Notes under the pieces: model-generated
What the model saw: the letters and a program-made list of their open reading frames with translations, nothing else
Told to the model about the DNA's origin: nothing
Databases searched by the model: none
Position numbers and translations under genes: made by a program
Source of the DNA: Colwellia sp. BRX10-3
Lineage (GTDB): Bacteria > Pseudomonadota > Gammaproteobacteria > Enterobacterales > Alteromonadaceae
DNA length: 64,000 nt
Reading direction: 5' to 3'
Assembly (NCBI RefSeq): GCF_014077505.1
Contig: NZ_JACGWA010000002.1
Span: forward strand, 248,001 to 312,000
Shown: one piece after another, positions 38,184-44,584 of the stretch
How the letters are laid out: every line of letters begins with the position of its first letter
Numbering within the stretch: position 1 is the stretch's first letter

Positions 38184-39980
38184 CTATTTTGGAATAACAT
38201 CAAATGAGATAGTCATTCTAGTTTCATCGGAAGTAAATGGCTTTGTACCGTGCCAGAAGTAGGAAGGGAAAAGCACTAGTAATCCATTTTGCGGCTTAAC
38301 AACATAGTCTGCTTCAAGTTTATGTTTCATATTGAATCCAGGTACACCAAACTCTATCCAGCCTTCACCATTATTATTAACTGCACTCGGTATTTGGTTA
38401 TAATATGGGCCGCTTATCCATCCTTCTGAGTGGTAATGGTTTTTATGGAAACCTTGTTTTTGTAATAAAACTGACCAAGAACCCTGATACTGAAAACTGG
38501 ACATTATTCGCTTTAAAAACGGATGACTTTTGTGCTGACTAAAACCATTTATATAGCGCTGTATATGCTTTTGTAATTCAATGTCGAGTAAGTTAATCAC
38601 AGGTGATTTTGATGGAAATAAATCTCCAATGGTTTGTGTTCCATTAATTAAAGACTGATCAAGCGGGTGTTGTTTACTAGTATGTAACTTAGTTAACTCA
38701 GTATTTAATTCTTGATTAAATTCTATCAATGATTGGCCGTCATTAGGGGGTGTTACTTCTGCGCTATATATAAATTTATTGGGATCGCATAGCTCGTTAT
38801 ATTCTTTGGTTTTCCCAAGCATTTTTAAACTTGTTGATTTTAGAGTGATACAACTTAGGTTGTTTCGATCACTGTGGGTTAATCGGTCGAATATCTTTAA
38901 TGATGCACTAGCATTATCATTAGCAATAAATGCGTGGCCTTGTTCATATAATAAATGAATATTATTTTTATTGTTTTTTAAGCCTTGAGTACTGATTGAT
39001 ACTGCTTCTTCGAATTCTCCAAGTTCCCTCAGAGCGTTAGATTTTATAATGTATGCGAGCGCTTCATTTTTATCTACAGTGAGGATTTTATCGGCAATTT
39101 TTATAGCTTTATCATACGCTTTTGCATGTAATAATTTTCTGCCAAACTCTCCCATCAAAGCAGTTGAATTTGTTCTTTCGATAGCAGACTTATAATTAGA
39201 AAAACATTCGTCTACAGGTAATGATCTTGACCATTTAATTAAGCTTAATTGATGATGAGCATCATAATCTAATGGAAAATCGTTAATAATTTTTTCATAT
39301 ACACTGATTGATGAATCAACTTTTTCTTCAATTAGGTAACAACTGGCTAACGCTTTATTTGATTCTGTACTTGCTCCATTTTGAGCTAATATTGATTTAA
39401 AATATTTCTTTGCTTCTGGTATGTTTCCATACTCTTTTTCAATTTGTCCCAGCAAATACAGACTTTGTTCGTTATGAGGATTATTATCCAAAATCTCTAA
39501 CAGGATGTTTTTTGCTTTTAAGCTATCTTCTGTTTTGTTGTAACATTTCGCTAATCCAACCTTTGCACCGATGCTGTTACTATTTATCAATAAAGCACTT
39601 TTAAAGTAAGCTTTTGCGTCAACATAAGCATCTTCTGAGAATAAAATGTTTCCAAGGTTAATATGTGGGTCTATATATGTGGTTCTGCAACTTATAGCTT
39701 GCTTAAATTTGAGTTTTGCTAGCTCAACTTTATTTAATTGATTTAATAAGTTTCCATAGGCGTTAATTATTTCAGCTTGGTTAGGAGCCAACTTTAGTGC
39801 TTTTAAAAAATGTTTTTCACTTGCTTTAAAAAGGCTAAGTTTTCTTTCTGCAACTGCACGCAGATGCCAAAGCTGCGGGTTTTTACCCTGTAAACCTGTT
39901 AAGTTTTTGAAAATATCTAAAGCTAAATTAAATTCGCCGTTATTAAGATGATTGATTGCTTTTGTAATATTCGCTTGCAT
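38184..39980 (-). CDS. TPR protein with C-terminal 2OG-Fe(II) oxygenase domain
   Basis: 598 aa from the ATG at 39980; a longer frame to 40010 has no better start. Residues 1 to about 400 are roughly ten TPR repeats (for example AIINAYGNLLNQLNKVELAKLKFKQAI and LYLLGQIEKEYGNIPEAKKYFKSI regions). The C-terminal 200 residues resemble the putative 2OG-Fe(II) oxygenase family: KNHYHSEGWISGPYYNQIP (first ligand region), GWIEFGVPGF, GLLVLFPSYFWHGTKPF (distal His) and RMTISFDVIP (2-oxoglutarate Arg). It has no signal peptide, so it is cytosolic. The TPR part may present a protein or peptide substrate for hydroxylation; this is inference. It is monocistronic and flanked by unrelated genes. Confidence 0.85.
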   Translation of the reverse strand: MQANITKAINHLNNGEFNLALDIFKNLTGLQGKNPQLWHLRAVAERKLSLFKASEKHFLKALKLAPNQAEIINAYGNLLNQLNKVELAKLKFKQAISCRTTYIDPHINLGNILFSEDAYVDAKAYFKSALLINSNSIGAKVGLAKCYNKTEDSLKAKNILLEILDNNPHNEQSLYLLGQIEKEYGNIPEAKKYFKSILAQNGASTESNKALASCYLIEEKVDSSISVYEKIINDFPLDYDAHHQLSLIKWSRSLPVDECFSNYKSAIERTNSTALMGEFGRKLLHAKAYDKAIKIADKILTVDKNEALAYIIKSNALRELGEFEEAVSISTQGLKNNKNNIHLLYEQGHAFIANDNASASLKIFDRLTHSDRNNLSCITLKSTSLKMLGKTKEYNELCDPNKFIYSAEVTPPNDGQSLIEFNQELNTELTKLHTSKQHPLDQSLINGTQTIGDLFPSKSPVINLLDIELQKHIQRYINGFSQHKSHPFLKRIMSSFQYQGSWSVLLQKQGFHKNHYHSEGWISGPYYNQIPSAVNNNGEGWIEFGVPGFNMKHKLEADYVVKPQNGLLVLFPSYFWHGTKPFTSDETRMTISFDVIPK

Positions 39981-40060
39981 TGTTTCTTCTTTATTTTGTA
40001 AATTTATCAACGAGTGAAGATTAATAATATAATTGTAATGTCGATTTAAATATCACGTTA

Positions 40061-40231
40061 CTAATGGGTTACAAATAACATTAAAACAAAAAAAGCGATA
40101 ATTGTACCGTTAAACGCAAAGATATAACCGAAGCCTTTTAAGCCCTGTTTCATCGTGTAATTGTTACTTTTTAAATACCAATACCAAATAGCGCACATTA
40201 GTATGGGAACGAGAAAAAATAGTTTAATCAT
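40061..40231 (-). CDS. Small membrane protein downstream of ampG
   Basis: 56 aa, start ATG at 40231, two bases after the ampG stop codon, stop TAG at 40061-40063. The translation begins MIKLFFLVPILMCAIWYWYL, continues with a short basic loop (KSNNYTMKQGLKGFGY), and ends with a second hydrophobic helix (FNGTIIAFFVLMLFVTH). It therefore looks like a two-helix inner-membrane protein with a positively charged loop. The tight spacing to ampG suggests coupled translation. I do not recognise the family. Confidence 0.6.
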   Translation of the reverse strand: MIKLFFLVPILMCAIWYWYLKSNNYTMKQGLKGFGYIFAFNGTIIAFFVLMLFVTH

Positions 40232-40233
40232 AT

Positions 40234-41493
40234 TTACGCTATCTCCTGTGGTGCTGGTTTAGTTGGCTCTCGCCAAGGTGCAACTTTCAATAGCATTAGC
40301 ATACCGGGTATGGCTAATGCTGTGCACATAAAGTAAAAATTAGTCCAGCCTATTTGTTCGACAATAACGCCTGTTGTGGCATTAGCAAATGTTCTTGGTA
40401 GCGCTGTTAAGGCAGTAAATAATGCAAATTGTGTTGCTGCAAATGCTGGGTTAGTCGCTCTGGCTATAAAGGCGACAAAAGCTGCTGTACCAAGACCAAC
40501 GCCTAAATACTCAAAGCCCATAGCGAATGCTAAAGCGTAGGTGTTGTGGCCAATTTCTGCCAGTGCTGCAAAGCCCAATATACTGATGATTTGAACAAAA
40601 CCAAATAACCAAAGCGCACGATTAATACTTAATTTTATCATCACTATACCACCAACAGCCAAACCTATAGTCATAGCGATTAATGACGCTGTTTTAGCCA
40701 CCACTCCAATTTCAGTATTGGTGAAGCCTAAATCTATGAAAAATGGCGTTTGTAGTGCAGTCGCCATGCTATCGCCGAGTTTATATAAAAATAAAAAAGC
40801 GAGAATTTGTAATGCAGATTTTGTGCCTTTTCGGTTGATAAAGTCTTTAAAAGGCAATACAACGGCTTGTTGTAATGTTTTTGGCGCTTGGGCAGAAGTT
40901 TTAAGCTCTTTTATTGAAAGGCTCAATAGAATACCGACGAGCATAAATGCAGCGACAACAATGAATACTGCTTGCCAACTGATGTGGTCAGCAAGAATAA
41001 ACCCCAATGAACCTGGTACTAAGCCAGAAAGTCGATAAGCTTGTACATGAATAGAGTTGCCCAAGCCAAGTTCATGTTCGGGCAATAATTCGCGGCGATA
41101 AGCATCCAGTACAATATCTTGGCTAGCACTGAAAAATGCGACTGCAGCCGCTAAATAAGCAACATTCCAGATATTCATTACGGGGTCAACAAAACCAAAA
41201 CCTGCGATAGAAAACAATAAAAGCACTTGTGTTAGCAACATCCAACTACGACGGCGGCCAAGTACAGGTAAAGAATATCGGTCCATTAATGGCGACCAAA
41301 TAAACTTCCATACGTAGGGTATACCAATAAGAGAAAATAAGCCTATTTCCGCTAAACTGACGCCTTCGGAGCGCAGCCAGCCAGGTACAAGTTGATAAAG
41401 AATAAATAAAGGCAACCCGGAGCTAAAACCGGTGAAGATACAAATTAGCATACGACGATTAAATATTGCTTGCTTAAAGGTTGGAGAATGCAT
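40234..41493 (-). CDS. ampG: AmpG-type muropeptide permease (MFS)
   Basis: 419 aa with about 12 transmembrane segments. AmpG carries GlcNAc-anhydroMurNAc peptides from the periplasm into the cytosol for cell-wall recycling and beta-lactamase control. AmpG-specific blocks: GFSSGLPLFILYQLVPGWLRSE, PYVWKFIWSPLMDRYSLPVLGRRRSWM, FFSASQDIVLDAYRRELLP and AATQFALFTALTALPRTFAN. It is close to bolA and yajG, as in E. coli (ampG-yajG-bolA). At 419 aa it lacks the two extra C-terminal helices of E. coli AmpG (491 aa); the small membrane gene that follows directly is worth comparing with that missing part. Confidence 0.93.
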   Translation of the reverse strand: MHSPTFKQAIFNRRMLICIFTGFSSGLPLFILYQLVPGWLRSEGVSLAEIGLFSLIGIPYVWKFIWSPLMDRYSLPVLGRRRSWMLLTQVLLLFSIAGFGFVDPVMNIWNVAYLAAAVAFFSASQDIVLDAYRRELLPEHELGLGNSIHVQAYRLSGLVPGSLGFILADHISWQAVFIVVAAFMLVGILLSLSIKELKTSAQAPKTLQQAVVLPFKDFINRKGTKSALQILAFLFLYKLGDSMATALQTPFFIDLGFTNTEIGVVAKTASLIAMTIGLAVGGIVMIKLSINRALWLFGFVQIISILGFAALAEIGHNTYALAFAMGFEYLGVGLGTAAFVAFIARATNPAFAATQFALFTALTALPRTFANATTGVIVEQIGWTNFYFMCTALAIPGMLMLLKVAPWREPTKPAPQEIA

Positions 41494-41631
41494 TGCTCAA
41501 AGCCTAATGAATGCGAAAAGGTAATGCTGATAGGCTATCAAAATGTATTAGTAAACAGAAGTTTAATCTTTTCAAACAGCTAATTAGTTGTTAAATATTA
41601 ACTGACATTTATCAGCTTTAGCTGGGTAATG

Positions 41632-41961
41632 TTAAGGTATCGGGCGCCAACCTATACAATCAATAGGGTAGCTGCCTGTACCAGAGAAAAAGTCTAAACA
41701 GGTTGATATTTCACTTTTAAAATATAAATCACGGTCAAGATCATTAGCGCTATGTAAACTAAGTTCATGCATTATATGCCAAAAAACACGTTCTCTAGCA
41801 TTACTGGGGGTTTCATCACTAACGTGCAGTAAAGTCCATTCTGCCATGGTGTTTTCGACGAATTGATCAAGCTCAGTGTAATGCAAAGAATGATTAATAA
41901 CAGCGATGATATAGGCCCGGATTTGAGTGATTTTCTCATTGATAAACTGCTCAATTATCAT
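41632..41961 (-). CDS. Conserved hypothetical protein, about 109 aa
   Basis: 109 aa from the ATG at 41961, preceded by GGAA; a start at 41979 would be a poor choice. The protein (MIIEQFINEKITQIRAYIIA, HYTELDQFVENTMAEWTLL, ERVFWHIMHELSLHSANDL) is helical and cytosolic. It ends GTGSYPIDCIGWRPIP. I do not recognise a named family, though similar short proteins occur in Alteromonadales near ampG from memory. No function is suggested. Confidence 0.7.
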   Translation of the reverse strand: MIIEQFINEKITQIRAYIIAVINHSLHYTELDQFVENTMAEWTLLHVSDETPSNARERVFWHIMHELSLHSANDLDRDLYFKSEISTCLDFFSGTGSYPIDCIGWRPIP

Positions 41962-42229
41962 GTTGTTCCTTTTGTACAATTAAGCTAATAAAGGGACTTA
42001 GCTAAGGAGAATAATGATGTTAATCGCCTTGTAATCTTGTTTGATACTGTTTAGTTATCGTAGATAAAACTAAAATTGTCAAAGTTCATGGGGTGTGAAA
42101 TTGTAACTTAAAGACCATTTTGACAAACTATTTAGCAATCAAGTCAGCACTTGAAAGGGGAGGGATGCTAATTTTAAGTGCTTTAAAATTAGGTTTACCC
42201 TTAATATTCGATGTATTAAAGTTACAAAG

Positions 42230-42814
42230 TTATATTGCCGGTAATAAACTAGCCTTGATTAACATGATAGGTTCAATTGGCACATCTTCCCAGCCCATCT
42301 CTTCATTATAATCTGTTGCTACTAAGGCCATAGCATCGACGACTTCTTGCCCTTCAACGATGCTACCAAAAACCGCGTAACCCCAACTTCTGCCGGGGTC
42401 TAAGCTACTATTGTCTGTAATGTTGAAAAAGAATTGTCTATTCGCAGTATGGGGACGGTTTTCTTTAGCCATGGCAATTGTGCCAATTTCGTTTTTTAAA
42501 CCATTACCCGATTCATTTATAATGGTTTTATCCACTTTTTTAAGCTCAAAATTTTTGCTATAACCACCGCCTTGGACAATAAAATCAGGCACAATGCGAT
42601 GAAAAATTGTGTTGTTGTACTCACCCGTAACCACGTAAGTCAAAAAGTTATCGACAGTGAGTGGTGCGCGAACTCTATCAAGCTCAACAATAATAATCCC
42701 CATCGAGGTTTCTAATTTAACCTGTGGGAATAAGTTATCAGGGTCAATAGCCAGGTTTTTCGCATTACAGGTGACTGAAAGTAAGAATAATATAATTGAA
42801 ATAATTTTCATCAT
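42230..42814 (-). CDS. Periplasmic cyclophilin-type peptidyl-prolyl cis-trans isomerase
   Basis: 194 aa. An N-terminal signal peptide (MMKIISIILFLLSVTCNAKN) is followed by a bacterial cyclophilin domain: VKLETSMGIIIVELDRVRAP, NFLTYVVTGEYNNTIFHRIVPDFIVQGGGY (active-site FHR and QGG), EIGTIAMAKENRPHTANRQFFFNI, and WGYAVFGSIVEGQEVVDAM. It resembles PpiA or PpiB types; the signal peptide makes it periplasmic like PpiA. The active-site Arg and Phe are present. It lies downstream of yajG on the same strand. Confidence 0.93.
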   Translation of the reverse strand: MMKIISIILFLLSVTCNAKNLAIDPDNLFPQVKLETSMGIIIVELDRVRAPLTVDNFLTYVVTGEYNNTIFHRIVPDFIVQGGGYSKNFELKKVDKTIINESGNGLKNEIGTIAMAKENRPHTANRQFFFNITDNSSLDPGRSWGYAVFGSIVEGQEVVDAMALVATDYNEEMGWEDVPIEPIMLIKASLLPAI

Positions 42815-42845
42815 GGCGTTCTCTATCTGAATATTAGGACTTAAA

Positions 42846-43415
42846 CTATTGAATGAATTGCTGTAATTCTTCGCTTTGCACTATTTGTGTTAACAACTTT
42901 GCCAGTTGTTGGTTAAAATCGCGCTCTAATACCGCAAGATCTGCCTTTAGTGGTCCATTACTTGTGCCGGTTATTTTAAATGCTTTCGTTAAAGTGTTTT
43001 TACCATTGTTGATCACAACACGAAAACTCATTTGATTACTGGCGCTGTATTTTAACATTTCTTGTTGAACACTCACTAAAGCGTTGTCGATAATGACATC
43101 AACTTGATTGGCTGCTAGTGGTTGAACTGCTAAACCATTTACTTTTAATGCTGAGGTAAGTGACTTTTCAACTGTCTCAACAAGTGGTTGTTGAGGTGAA
43201 TATAATTGTGCAGCTTCGTCCGTACGTAAAATTTGCACAATATGTGGTGAGGAGCGTAAATCACTAAAACGCAATTGTGCTTGTTTTTGTTGGAAGACAT
43301 TACTGTTGGAAATATTTAGCTCAGGGCTAACAATAACCTGTTTTATTGGCGAACTACAGGCGAGTAATAACGTTGTAGAACTTAAAAGGATAAACTTTAA
43401 TATAGTTGATTTCAT
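42846..43415 (-). CDS. yajG: YajG-family lipoprotein
   Basis: 189 aa. The N-terminus has a signal with lipobox LLLAC-SS, so it is lipid-anchored, and the second residue after Cys is not Asp, which suggests the outer membrane. The body is the YajG/LPS-assembly-like fold (VSPELNISN, RFSDLRSSPHIVQILRTDEA, LAANQVDVIIDNALVSVQQE). YajG proteins are of unknown function. The gene is near ampG and bolA as in E. coli. It is followed 31 bp later by the cyclophilin gene. Confidence 0.85.
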   Translation of the reverse strand: MKSTILKFILLSSTTLLLACSSPIKQVIVSPELNISNSNVFQQKQAQLRFSDLRSSPHIVQILRTDEAAQLYSPQQPLVETVEKSLTSALKVNGLAVQPLAANQVDVIIDNALVSVQQEMLKYSASNQMSFRVVINNGKNTLTKAFKITGTSNGPLKADLAVLERDFNQQLAKLLTQIVQSEELQQFIQ

Positions 43416-43444
43416 ATAATATTCTTCAGAGTTAAGTGAGTTAA

Positions 43445-44584
43445 TTAACGTTTTATTGCTGAAATAGTGACAAACTTATCATTGCTAGCGATCAGTGTTT
43501 CATTGCCAAAAATACGTTTTAATTTTATATGGTAACCGAGCTGACGATTGCCAATAATGCGCAACTCACCGCCTTTTTTCAATACTCGATGACTGTCTTT
43601 AAACATCTGCCACGCGATATGATCTGTGGTGGCGGTTTGTTGGTGAAACGGAGGGTTACATAAAACCACATCAACACTGCCACCTTCAACGCTGGTTAAA
43701 CAATCATTTACTTGAAATTGGCATTGCTCAAGGGCTGATGGTAAGTTTTCAGTCATATTTAGCCTTGCTGATTCAATGGCCATGTATGATTCATCAATGA
43801 AATGCACCTGCGCTTCAGGCTGTTTTGATAATACATGTAAGCCAATAACTCCATTACCGCAACCGAGATCGATCACCTGAGTGTTAGCAGCAATAACGGG
43901 TAAATTTTCCATAAAATAACGCGCACCAATATCTAGTTTTTCTCTGGCATAGACATTGGCGTGATTATGCAAAGTAAAGTCGGTGTTTTCCAAAGGCCAT
44001 GAAGTTAGAACGTCAGCCGTTGTAGCTTTTTCATTATTAAGTTCGCAAAATACTAGTCGTGCTTTTTTTACTGCTAATGACGTTTTTGTGGTGCCTAAGT
44101 AGTTCTCAAATAACTTTAGTGTTGAGCTGTGAATTTCTTTGGCGCGATCACTGGCAATAAAAATAACATCTTTATTAAGTTGCTGTTTTATTTTACTGAG
44201 TTGCTGACAGAGTAAGCTTTTGCCTTTTGGAATTTTATATAGCACGATATTAATATCACTCGGCAAATCATCAAGACTGCTAAGTAAAGTGATGTTTTCG
44301 TTTGATAAACCATTCTGCTCTATATTAAGTTCAATACCTTGGTGACTTAAAAAAGAGTCATTAACACAATACAATTGATGACCAGTTAAGTTACAAGCTA
44401 TAGCGCCAAAGTTATCGTTGAAAATAAGGATTTTTTGTTTTGAGTCACTTAAAGACTCTTGCTCTAAATAACTAATAATATATTCATCAGCTGCATCCCA
44501 TGCCTGCAAGCTTCTGTTAACTTGTCCAGTTGGAAAACGATCGAGAAAAAGATTTTTGTCGTTAATAATAAAAGGGCTGATCAT
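43445..44584 (-). CDS. rlmG: 23S rRNA (guanine-N2) methyltransferase RlmG
   Basis: 379 aa. E. coli RlmG methylates G1835 of 23S rRNA. The protein has a degenerate N-terminal Rossmann domain (LQAWDAADEYIISYLEQE, KILIFNDNFGAIAC) and a C-terminal catalytic domain with motif I VIDLGCGNGVIGLHVL, the acidic FIDESYMAIESARLN and the catalytic NPPF in VVLCNPPFHQQTATTDHIAWQMF. The block FTLHNHANVYAREKLDIGARYFMENLP is shared with RlmG and the related RsmC; N-terminal similarity favours RlmG. It heads the minus-strand cluster opposite alkB. Confidence 0.92.
   Translation of the reverse strand: MISPFIINDKNLFLDRFPTGQVNRSLQAWDAADEYIISYLEQESLSDSKQKILIFNDNFGAIACNLTGHQLYCVNDSFLSHQGIELNIEQNGLSNENITLLSSLDDLPSDINIVLYKIPKGKSLLCQQLSKIKQQLNKDVIFIASDRAKEIHSSTLKLFENYLGTTKTSLAVKKARLVFCELNNEKATTADVLTSWPLENTDFTLHNHANVYAREKLDIGARYFMENLPVIAANTQVIDLGCGNGVIGLHVLSKQPEAQVHFIDESYMAIESARLNMTENLPSALEQCQFQVNDCLTSVEGGSVDVVLCNPPFHQQTATTDHIAWQMFKDSHRVLKKGGELRIIGNRQLGYHIKLKRIFGNETLIASNDKFVTISAIKR

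Follow-up and report, generated by a model that had tools for sequence, protein, structure and literature searches.

The ampG locus of the window

The window, a 64,000-nucleotide stretch of DNA from Colwellia sp. BRX10-3, carries on its minus strand a short open reading frame that lies directly behind ampG. A sequence-only reading of this DNA had described the frame as 56 codons encoding an easily missed two-helix membrane protein, starting two bases past the ampG stop and likely translated with it. The placement is confirmed, the ampG stop codon lying at 40234-40236. We refer to the frame as the hairpin gene, and the features of the locus are as follows.

40061..40231, minus strand: hairpin gene, 56 codons (56 aa) with ATG start and stop; predicted two-helix, presumed inner-membrane protein
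40234..41493, minus strand: ampG, 419 aa, TIGR00901; belongs to a short AmpG subfamily that lacks the C-terminal extension of E. coli
40243..40248, minus strand: CAGGAG, Shine-Dalgarno-like, inside the ampG 3' end, 11 nt before the hairpin ATG
41632..41979, minus strand: 115-aa ORF ('c9'), member of the conserved ampG locus, without a Pfam match
42230..42814, minus strand: cyclophilin-type peptidyl-prolyl isomerase (ppi), PF00160
42846..43415, minus strand: putative lipoprotein, PF03923, which we take to be YajG-like
43445..44584, minus strand: 379-aa ORF, presumably methyltransferase-like (rsmC-like), at the upstream end of the conserved locus

In genomes where the hairpin gene is linked to ampG, the usual gene order is the rsmC-like gene, the yajG-like lipoprotein gene, the peptidyl-prolyl isomerase gene, the 115-aa ORF, ampG and the hairpin gene, with some members absent from, or outside the fetched stretch of, part of the linked loci. 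In 16 of 21 linked loci the 115-aa ORF is placed between the isomerase gene and ampG, some of the others being incompletely covered, and in E. coli yajG precedes ampG. We compared nine loci and one genus locus of the order, in which families, genera, genomes and loci carry handles beginning with f, g, G and L, and f1 is the window's own family. The upstream block, whole or partial, is also found by ampG in f2, f6, f12, f20 and f25, and in f16 it stands beside an oppositely oriented ampG; it was not seen at the f11 ampG, and at that of g25 only the 115-aa ORF was seen. In f2, f6, f12, f16, f20 and f25 the hairpin gene lies elsewhere or is missing. In much of the order ampG is thus part of the block, with the hairpin gene at its end in one clade.

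Downstream of the hairpin gene, on the same strand, positions 38184-40010 encode a TPR protein of 608 aa that ends in a 2OG-Fe(II) oxygenase domain (PF13759) and was not matched within 1.5 kb downstream of the hairpin gene in the 32 tabulated loci.

Conservation and distribution of the hairpin gene

The sequence-only reading had made the reality of the gene depend on conservation of the frame in close relatives, and the frame is kept, at an identical length of 171 nt, in 17 of 17 members of the window's genus (the window's own genome and 16 others, from Colwellia and Cognaticolwellia). Among these 17 members, mean dN is 0.081 and mean dS 1.31 (Nei-Gojobori, 103 usable of 136 pairs), giving a ratio of ∼0.06 that is approximate because dS is near saturation. 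The hairpin ORF is a real gene under purifying selection. An RNA element in place of the ORF was considered and rejected, the interval 39800-40600 being without an Rfam match.

In a set of 40 genomes, 28 carry a homologue at E <= 1.1e-6, the window's own genome counted, and 36 give a match at E <= 1, the weak ones probably by chance. Across the order, a 19-row profile matched 59 of 148 genomes and a 34-row profile, with up to 16 candidates scored in each genome, matched at least 130 of 394, spread over ten families. With the latter profile there was a single match per genome, except in G578, where a weak second match is interrupted by a stop. A class-wide sample of 185 genomes yielded the hairpin gene in two, namely the window's own genome and one other of the same family.

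Predicted fold and family searches

The hairpin protein is predicted with good confidence to fold as a two-helix hairpin, with AlphaFold2 placing the helices at residues 4-22 and 31-55 (mean pLDDT 90.5). Hydropathy is maximal at both ends of the protein, and a basic loop with the motif K-Q-G-x-K-G-F lies between the two predicted helices. This prediction, together with the frames and dN/dS ratio of the genus members, bears out the description of an easily missed two-helix membrane protein. In an alignment of 34 chosen rows, residues M1, P9, W16, G33 and I37 are invariant and L7, G30 and T55 nearly so. Over the same rows the mean net charge is +2.5 for the loop, +1.0 for the N tail and +0.1 for the C tail, and the loop charge exceeds that of both tails combined in 25 rows, a rule broken in the other 9. 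Judging from this charge distribution, the basic KQGxKGF loop is probably cytoplasmic.

Searched against Pfam and NCBIfam, the window's hairpin protein matched no family at E <= 1. The 34 members gave only weak matches in Pfam, to 12 families, among them TssN, matched by 6 of 34 members with E values down to 0.012, and a GPCR fragment, matched by 3 with E values down to 0.00054, and in NCBIfam they matched five families with a best E of 0.0096; we take these matches to be chance between hydrophobic helices. There was no match among phage records or PHROGs, and solved structures returned a single match by sequence (E 1) and a single match by fold (E 8.9), neither of them relevant. A limited literature search turned up no publication on this small protein, which does not mean that none exists. 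As judged from these searches and the distribution above, the protein is best read as belonging to an orphan, order-restricted family of small membrane proteins.

Relation to AmpG and its C-terminus

By family membership, the upstream gene is an AmpG muropeptide permease: its product scores 481.8 bits against NCBIfam TIGR00901, for which the cut-off is 350, over residues 11-402. Its MFS core is untruncated, because a solved AmpG structure (9c3f) aligns with residues 12-405. The sequence-only reading had noted that this AmpG is about 70 residues shorter than that of E. coli, and had suggested that the hairpin protein could be a split-off version of the two extra C-terminal helices. The length difference is correct (419 versus 491 aa, 72 residues), and it is ordinary, since 24 further AmpGs of the order, compared by their C-terminal tails, likewise stop soon after the last MFS core helix. 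AmpGs on the E. coli side, in f5 and f18, are 492 and 501 aa long and probably retain the E. coli-type extension.

The suggested origin is not supported by sequence. The hairpin profile showed no significant similarity to 26 AmpG proteins, those of E. coli and the window included (hmmsearch; best E 0.61, E. coli E 4.8), and against the C-terminal 96 residues of the E. coli protein (∼396-491) the hhalign probability was 0.1%. The hairpin gene is also found behind long AmpGs of 531-558 aa, whose extra length seemingly lies in the middle, because the offsets in their alignments with the window and E. coli AmpGs shift by ∼100 between the two halves. Like the E. coli extension, the hairpin protein supplies hydrophobic segments just where the MFS core ends. 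Unlike it, the hairpin gene constitutes a stand-alone family, without detectable sequence relation to the extension and unlinked to ampG in all checked families but one.

The ampG-hairpin junction

All 17 genus members have a CAGGAG motif no more than 30 nt upstream of the hairpin start. The hairpin frame begins +2 nt from the ampG stop in 14 of them, the others having gaps of 0, +1 and -4 (the last in L016). Judging from this junction, the hairpin protein is very probably co-translated with AmpG in the window's genus, so that the earlier expectation of joint translation stands as an inference. Outside these members, the two frames overlap by 4 nt in G019, G551 and G560, which represent three AmpG types, and the gap is 19 nt in G398, as calculated from locus offsets and an alignment, and 32 to 100 nt in five long-type loci. 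The remaining linked loci have gaps of 241 to 4566 nt, including g251 at 519-520 nt, whose AmpG nevertheless belongs to a type other than the long one; wide gaps are also those of g2 (1.0 kb), g29 (2.7 kb) and g253 (4.6 kb). A gene on the opposite strand intervenes between ampG and the hairpin gene in g2 and g29, and for this reason the hairpin gene presumably has its own promoter there. In the window, a scan of 39950-42000 detected no promoter-like site on the minus strand; it is a weak test, because none was detected before ampG either. Since tight joins occur with three non-long AmpG types but not with every type, and opposite-strand genes intervene in some arrangements, dependence of the hairpin gene on the ampG message looks derived.

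Linkage to ampG across the order

Smaller initial samples hinted at linkage to ampG in few f1 genera, and the 394-genome sample gave 16 of 32 listed f1 carriers with ampG at most 5 kb upstream on the same strand. Another 11 carry ampG elsewhere, five of them on another contig (G376, G408, G428, G476 and G586) and one, G142, with an AmpG score under the family cut-off. In the other five (G018, G387, G467, G486 and G578), AmpG was not found at E <= 1e-10 with TIGR00901; these genomes are 99-100% complete, and all but G387 belong to genus g3.

Outside f1, linkage was counted on 50 carriers from the 148-genome sample by comparing the ampG and hairpin tables by hand. All 50 encode AmpG, and in no case do ampG and the hairpin gene lie less than 20 kb apart on a shared contig. 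In 20 of them the two genes share a contig, the nearest pair being 21.7 kb apart (G052), and in 30 they lie on different contigs, so that the distance is not measurable. In the 148-genome sample, AmpG was present in 133 genomes at E <= 1e-40 and the hairpin gene in 59, and AmpG without the hairpin gene is common.

Because many relatives carry the hairpin gene away from ampG, and a few carry it without a recognisable AmpG, the position after ampG seems to be a local arrangement. The best reading is that the function of the hairpin protein is AmpG-independent and that AmpG is an unlikely obligate partner. A search for homologues downstream of ampG in relatives, which the sequence-only reading had proposed, is positive for half of the listed f1 carriers and negative, on the contigs available, for the 50 carriers outside the family. 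Its suggestion of an accessory subunit of muropeptide uptake is not supported as far as an obligate subunit is meant, and keeps a low probability as a clade-limited link.

Other neighbours accompany the hairpin gene outside f1, among them genes for an SDF (sodium:dicarboxylate) symporter, an M16 peptidase, a zinc-binding dehydrogenase, a VTT-domain protein and the oxaloacetate decarboxylase beta subunit. The gene immediately upstream, on the same strand, belongs to the SDF symporter cluster in L081 (f20, 4-nt overlap), L086 (f20, gap 18 nt), L041 (f15, gap 65 nt) and L082 (f6, gap 110 nt), the Pfam match to SDF being established for L081 and the other three being placed by cluster. Na_Pi_cotrans lies upstream of the hairpin gene in L036 (g7, gap 69 nt).

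Probable exchange of ampG at a fixed locus

In a tree of 57 AmpG rows, the 22 hairpin-linked AmpGs are scattered over several places. The long type and the g250 type fall in one larger group, while the short type common to the window's genus, g4 and G398 is sister to the short AmpGs of f16. Further linked types are the f11-like AmpG of G560, that of g251 next to f20 and that of g254 next to f2. The hairpin-linked label requires six changes on this tree, five of them forced by well-supported branches, and none of 500 shuffles gave a count as low; the exact counts and directions are soft, because the tree carries a long-branch warning.

The histories of ampG and the hairpin gene at the locus differ, because the window AmpG is close to f16 and the window hairpin is closer to f1. 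The window AmpG shares 82% identity with the f16 AmpG and only ∼30% with the long AmpGs found in f1; the window hairpin shares 55-88% identity with most of the linked hairpins of f1, 46-54% with those of g250 and g254, and 41-47% with those of f16. Genus g249 offers the clearest case, in which the AmpG of G560 is 80% identical to the f11 AmpG and that of G398, of the short type, is 82-83% identical to the g4 and window AmpGs, and the two hairpins are 88% identical to each other. In a tree of flanking genes, G398 and G560 group with full support, G560 contributing only 309 residues; the deep branches of this tree are weakly supported, and we relied on it for the groupings of g249, g250 and g251 only. 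Taken together, these comparisons suggest that ampG was replaced in place at the rsmC-yajG-ppi-c9 locus (window positions 40234-44584; L031-L033, L071-L073 and L122-L133), with a direction that we infer.

A candidate history of the hairpin gene

We consider it probable that an order-restricted hairpin protein with an AmpG-independent function became encoded by the last cistron behind ampG in Colwellia. The gene would have taken its place after rsmC-yajG-ppi-c9-ampG in the ancestry of the Colwellia-related clade. In Colwellia the slot holds an ampG from a short subfamily that is foreign to the greater part of f1. Because only a few bases separate the end of the ampG frame from the hairpin frame, the hairpin gene would now be translated from the ampG message, by way of the Shine-Dalgarno site in the ampG tail, stop coupling or both, the two genes being presumably co-transcribed. 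Where ampG is not adjacent, the hairpin gene would be expressed from its own promoter. By analogy with the class of small membrane proteins, the hairpin may pack against a larger inner-membrane protein or complex. The account draws on the conservation of the gene, the purifying selection, the hairpin prediction, the AmpG-independent distribution and the varied AmpG subfamilies beside a constant hairpin gene. Set against it, linkage in 16 of 32 f1 carriers and frames joined at -4 to +2 nt in four genera and with three AmpG types (one member at +19) amount to more coupling than indifference predicts.

This coupling could be attributed to the recruitment of the hairpin protein, within the clade, as an accessory or stabilising subunit of whichever AmpG fills the slot, which would be why it was kept beside ampG through the swaps. 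Adjacency with several AmpG subfamilies, and the 4-nt overlaps in G019, G551 and G560 and in the genus member L016, fit such a helper. We nevertheless consider it unlikely, while giving it some weight, since the same clade has the wide gaps of g2, g29, g253 and g251 as well as intervening opposite-strand genes, hairpins elsewhere occur without a linked ampG and even without AmpG, and short and long AmpGs, at ∼30% identity, would be hard to serve through one specific contact. A related proposal, that the Colwellia-clade hairpin is a swap-tolerant companion able to work with several distant AmpG subfamilies, would, if true, account for ampG exchange without hairpin loss and for frames repeatedly drawn to near-contact or overlap; this too seems unlikely to hold. 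Because the gene stands behind AmpG, an SDF symporter and a Na+/Pi cotransporter in different groups, the hairpin may instead be a general small partner of inner-membrane transporters that aids the insertion or stability of carriers at large. Many of 27 loci, however, have opposite-strand or distant neighbours only, and they share no common transporter, which makes such a role quite unlikely despite the SDF and Na_Pi_cotrans neighbours.

The remaining readings carry far less weight. A split-off C-terminal piece of an E. coli-type AmpG would have the right place, two helices and a shortened AmpG in front of it, but we regard it as ruled out, or at best very improbable, by the lack of sequence similarity, the coexistence of the hairpin gene with long AmpGs, the other AmpGs of the order that also end without the extension and the homologues in nine further families, which have no ampG nearby to the extent that contigs show it. 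A frame this short and hydrophobic, under the usual cut-offs, might also be non-coding or spurious, but the low dN/dS ratio, and homologues from ten families that can be aligned at both start and end, make that exceedingly improbable. The preferred reading remains a hairpin protein of AmpG-independent function that came to lie behind ampG.

Small inner-membrane accessory or regulatory proteins such as CydX, AcrZ, KdpF and MgtS mostly consist of one helix and work with a known partner. The hairpin protein is likewise very short, hydrophobic and conserved, but it has two predicted helices, and the likeness is to the general description of the class. Subunit c of F-type ATPases is a two-helix hairpin with a polar conserved loop, an arrangement that the hairpin protein shares; unlike subunit c, it has no conserved acidic residue in helix 2, and its Pfam and NCBIfam searches gave no family match.

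The position of a gene directly behind ampG, overlapping frames included, is not in itself evidence of a role with AmpG. What the locus adds is a well-conserved family of small membrane proteins that spans ten families of one order, has no convincing counterpart in Pfam or NCBIfam and is short enough that common ORF cut-offs may exclude it. Swapping of ampG within a constant locus provides a natural experiment on whether the type of the neighbouring AmpG matters to the hairpin.
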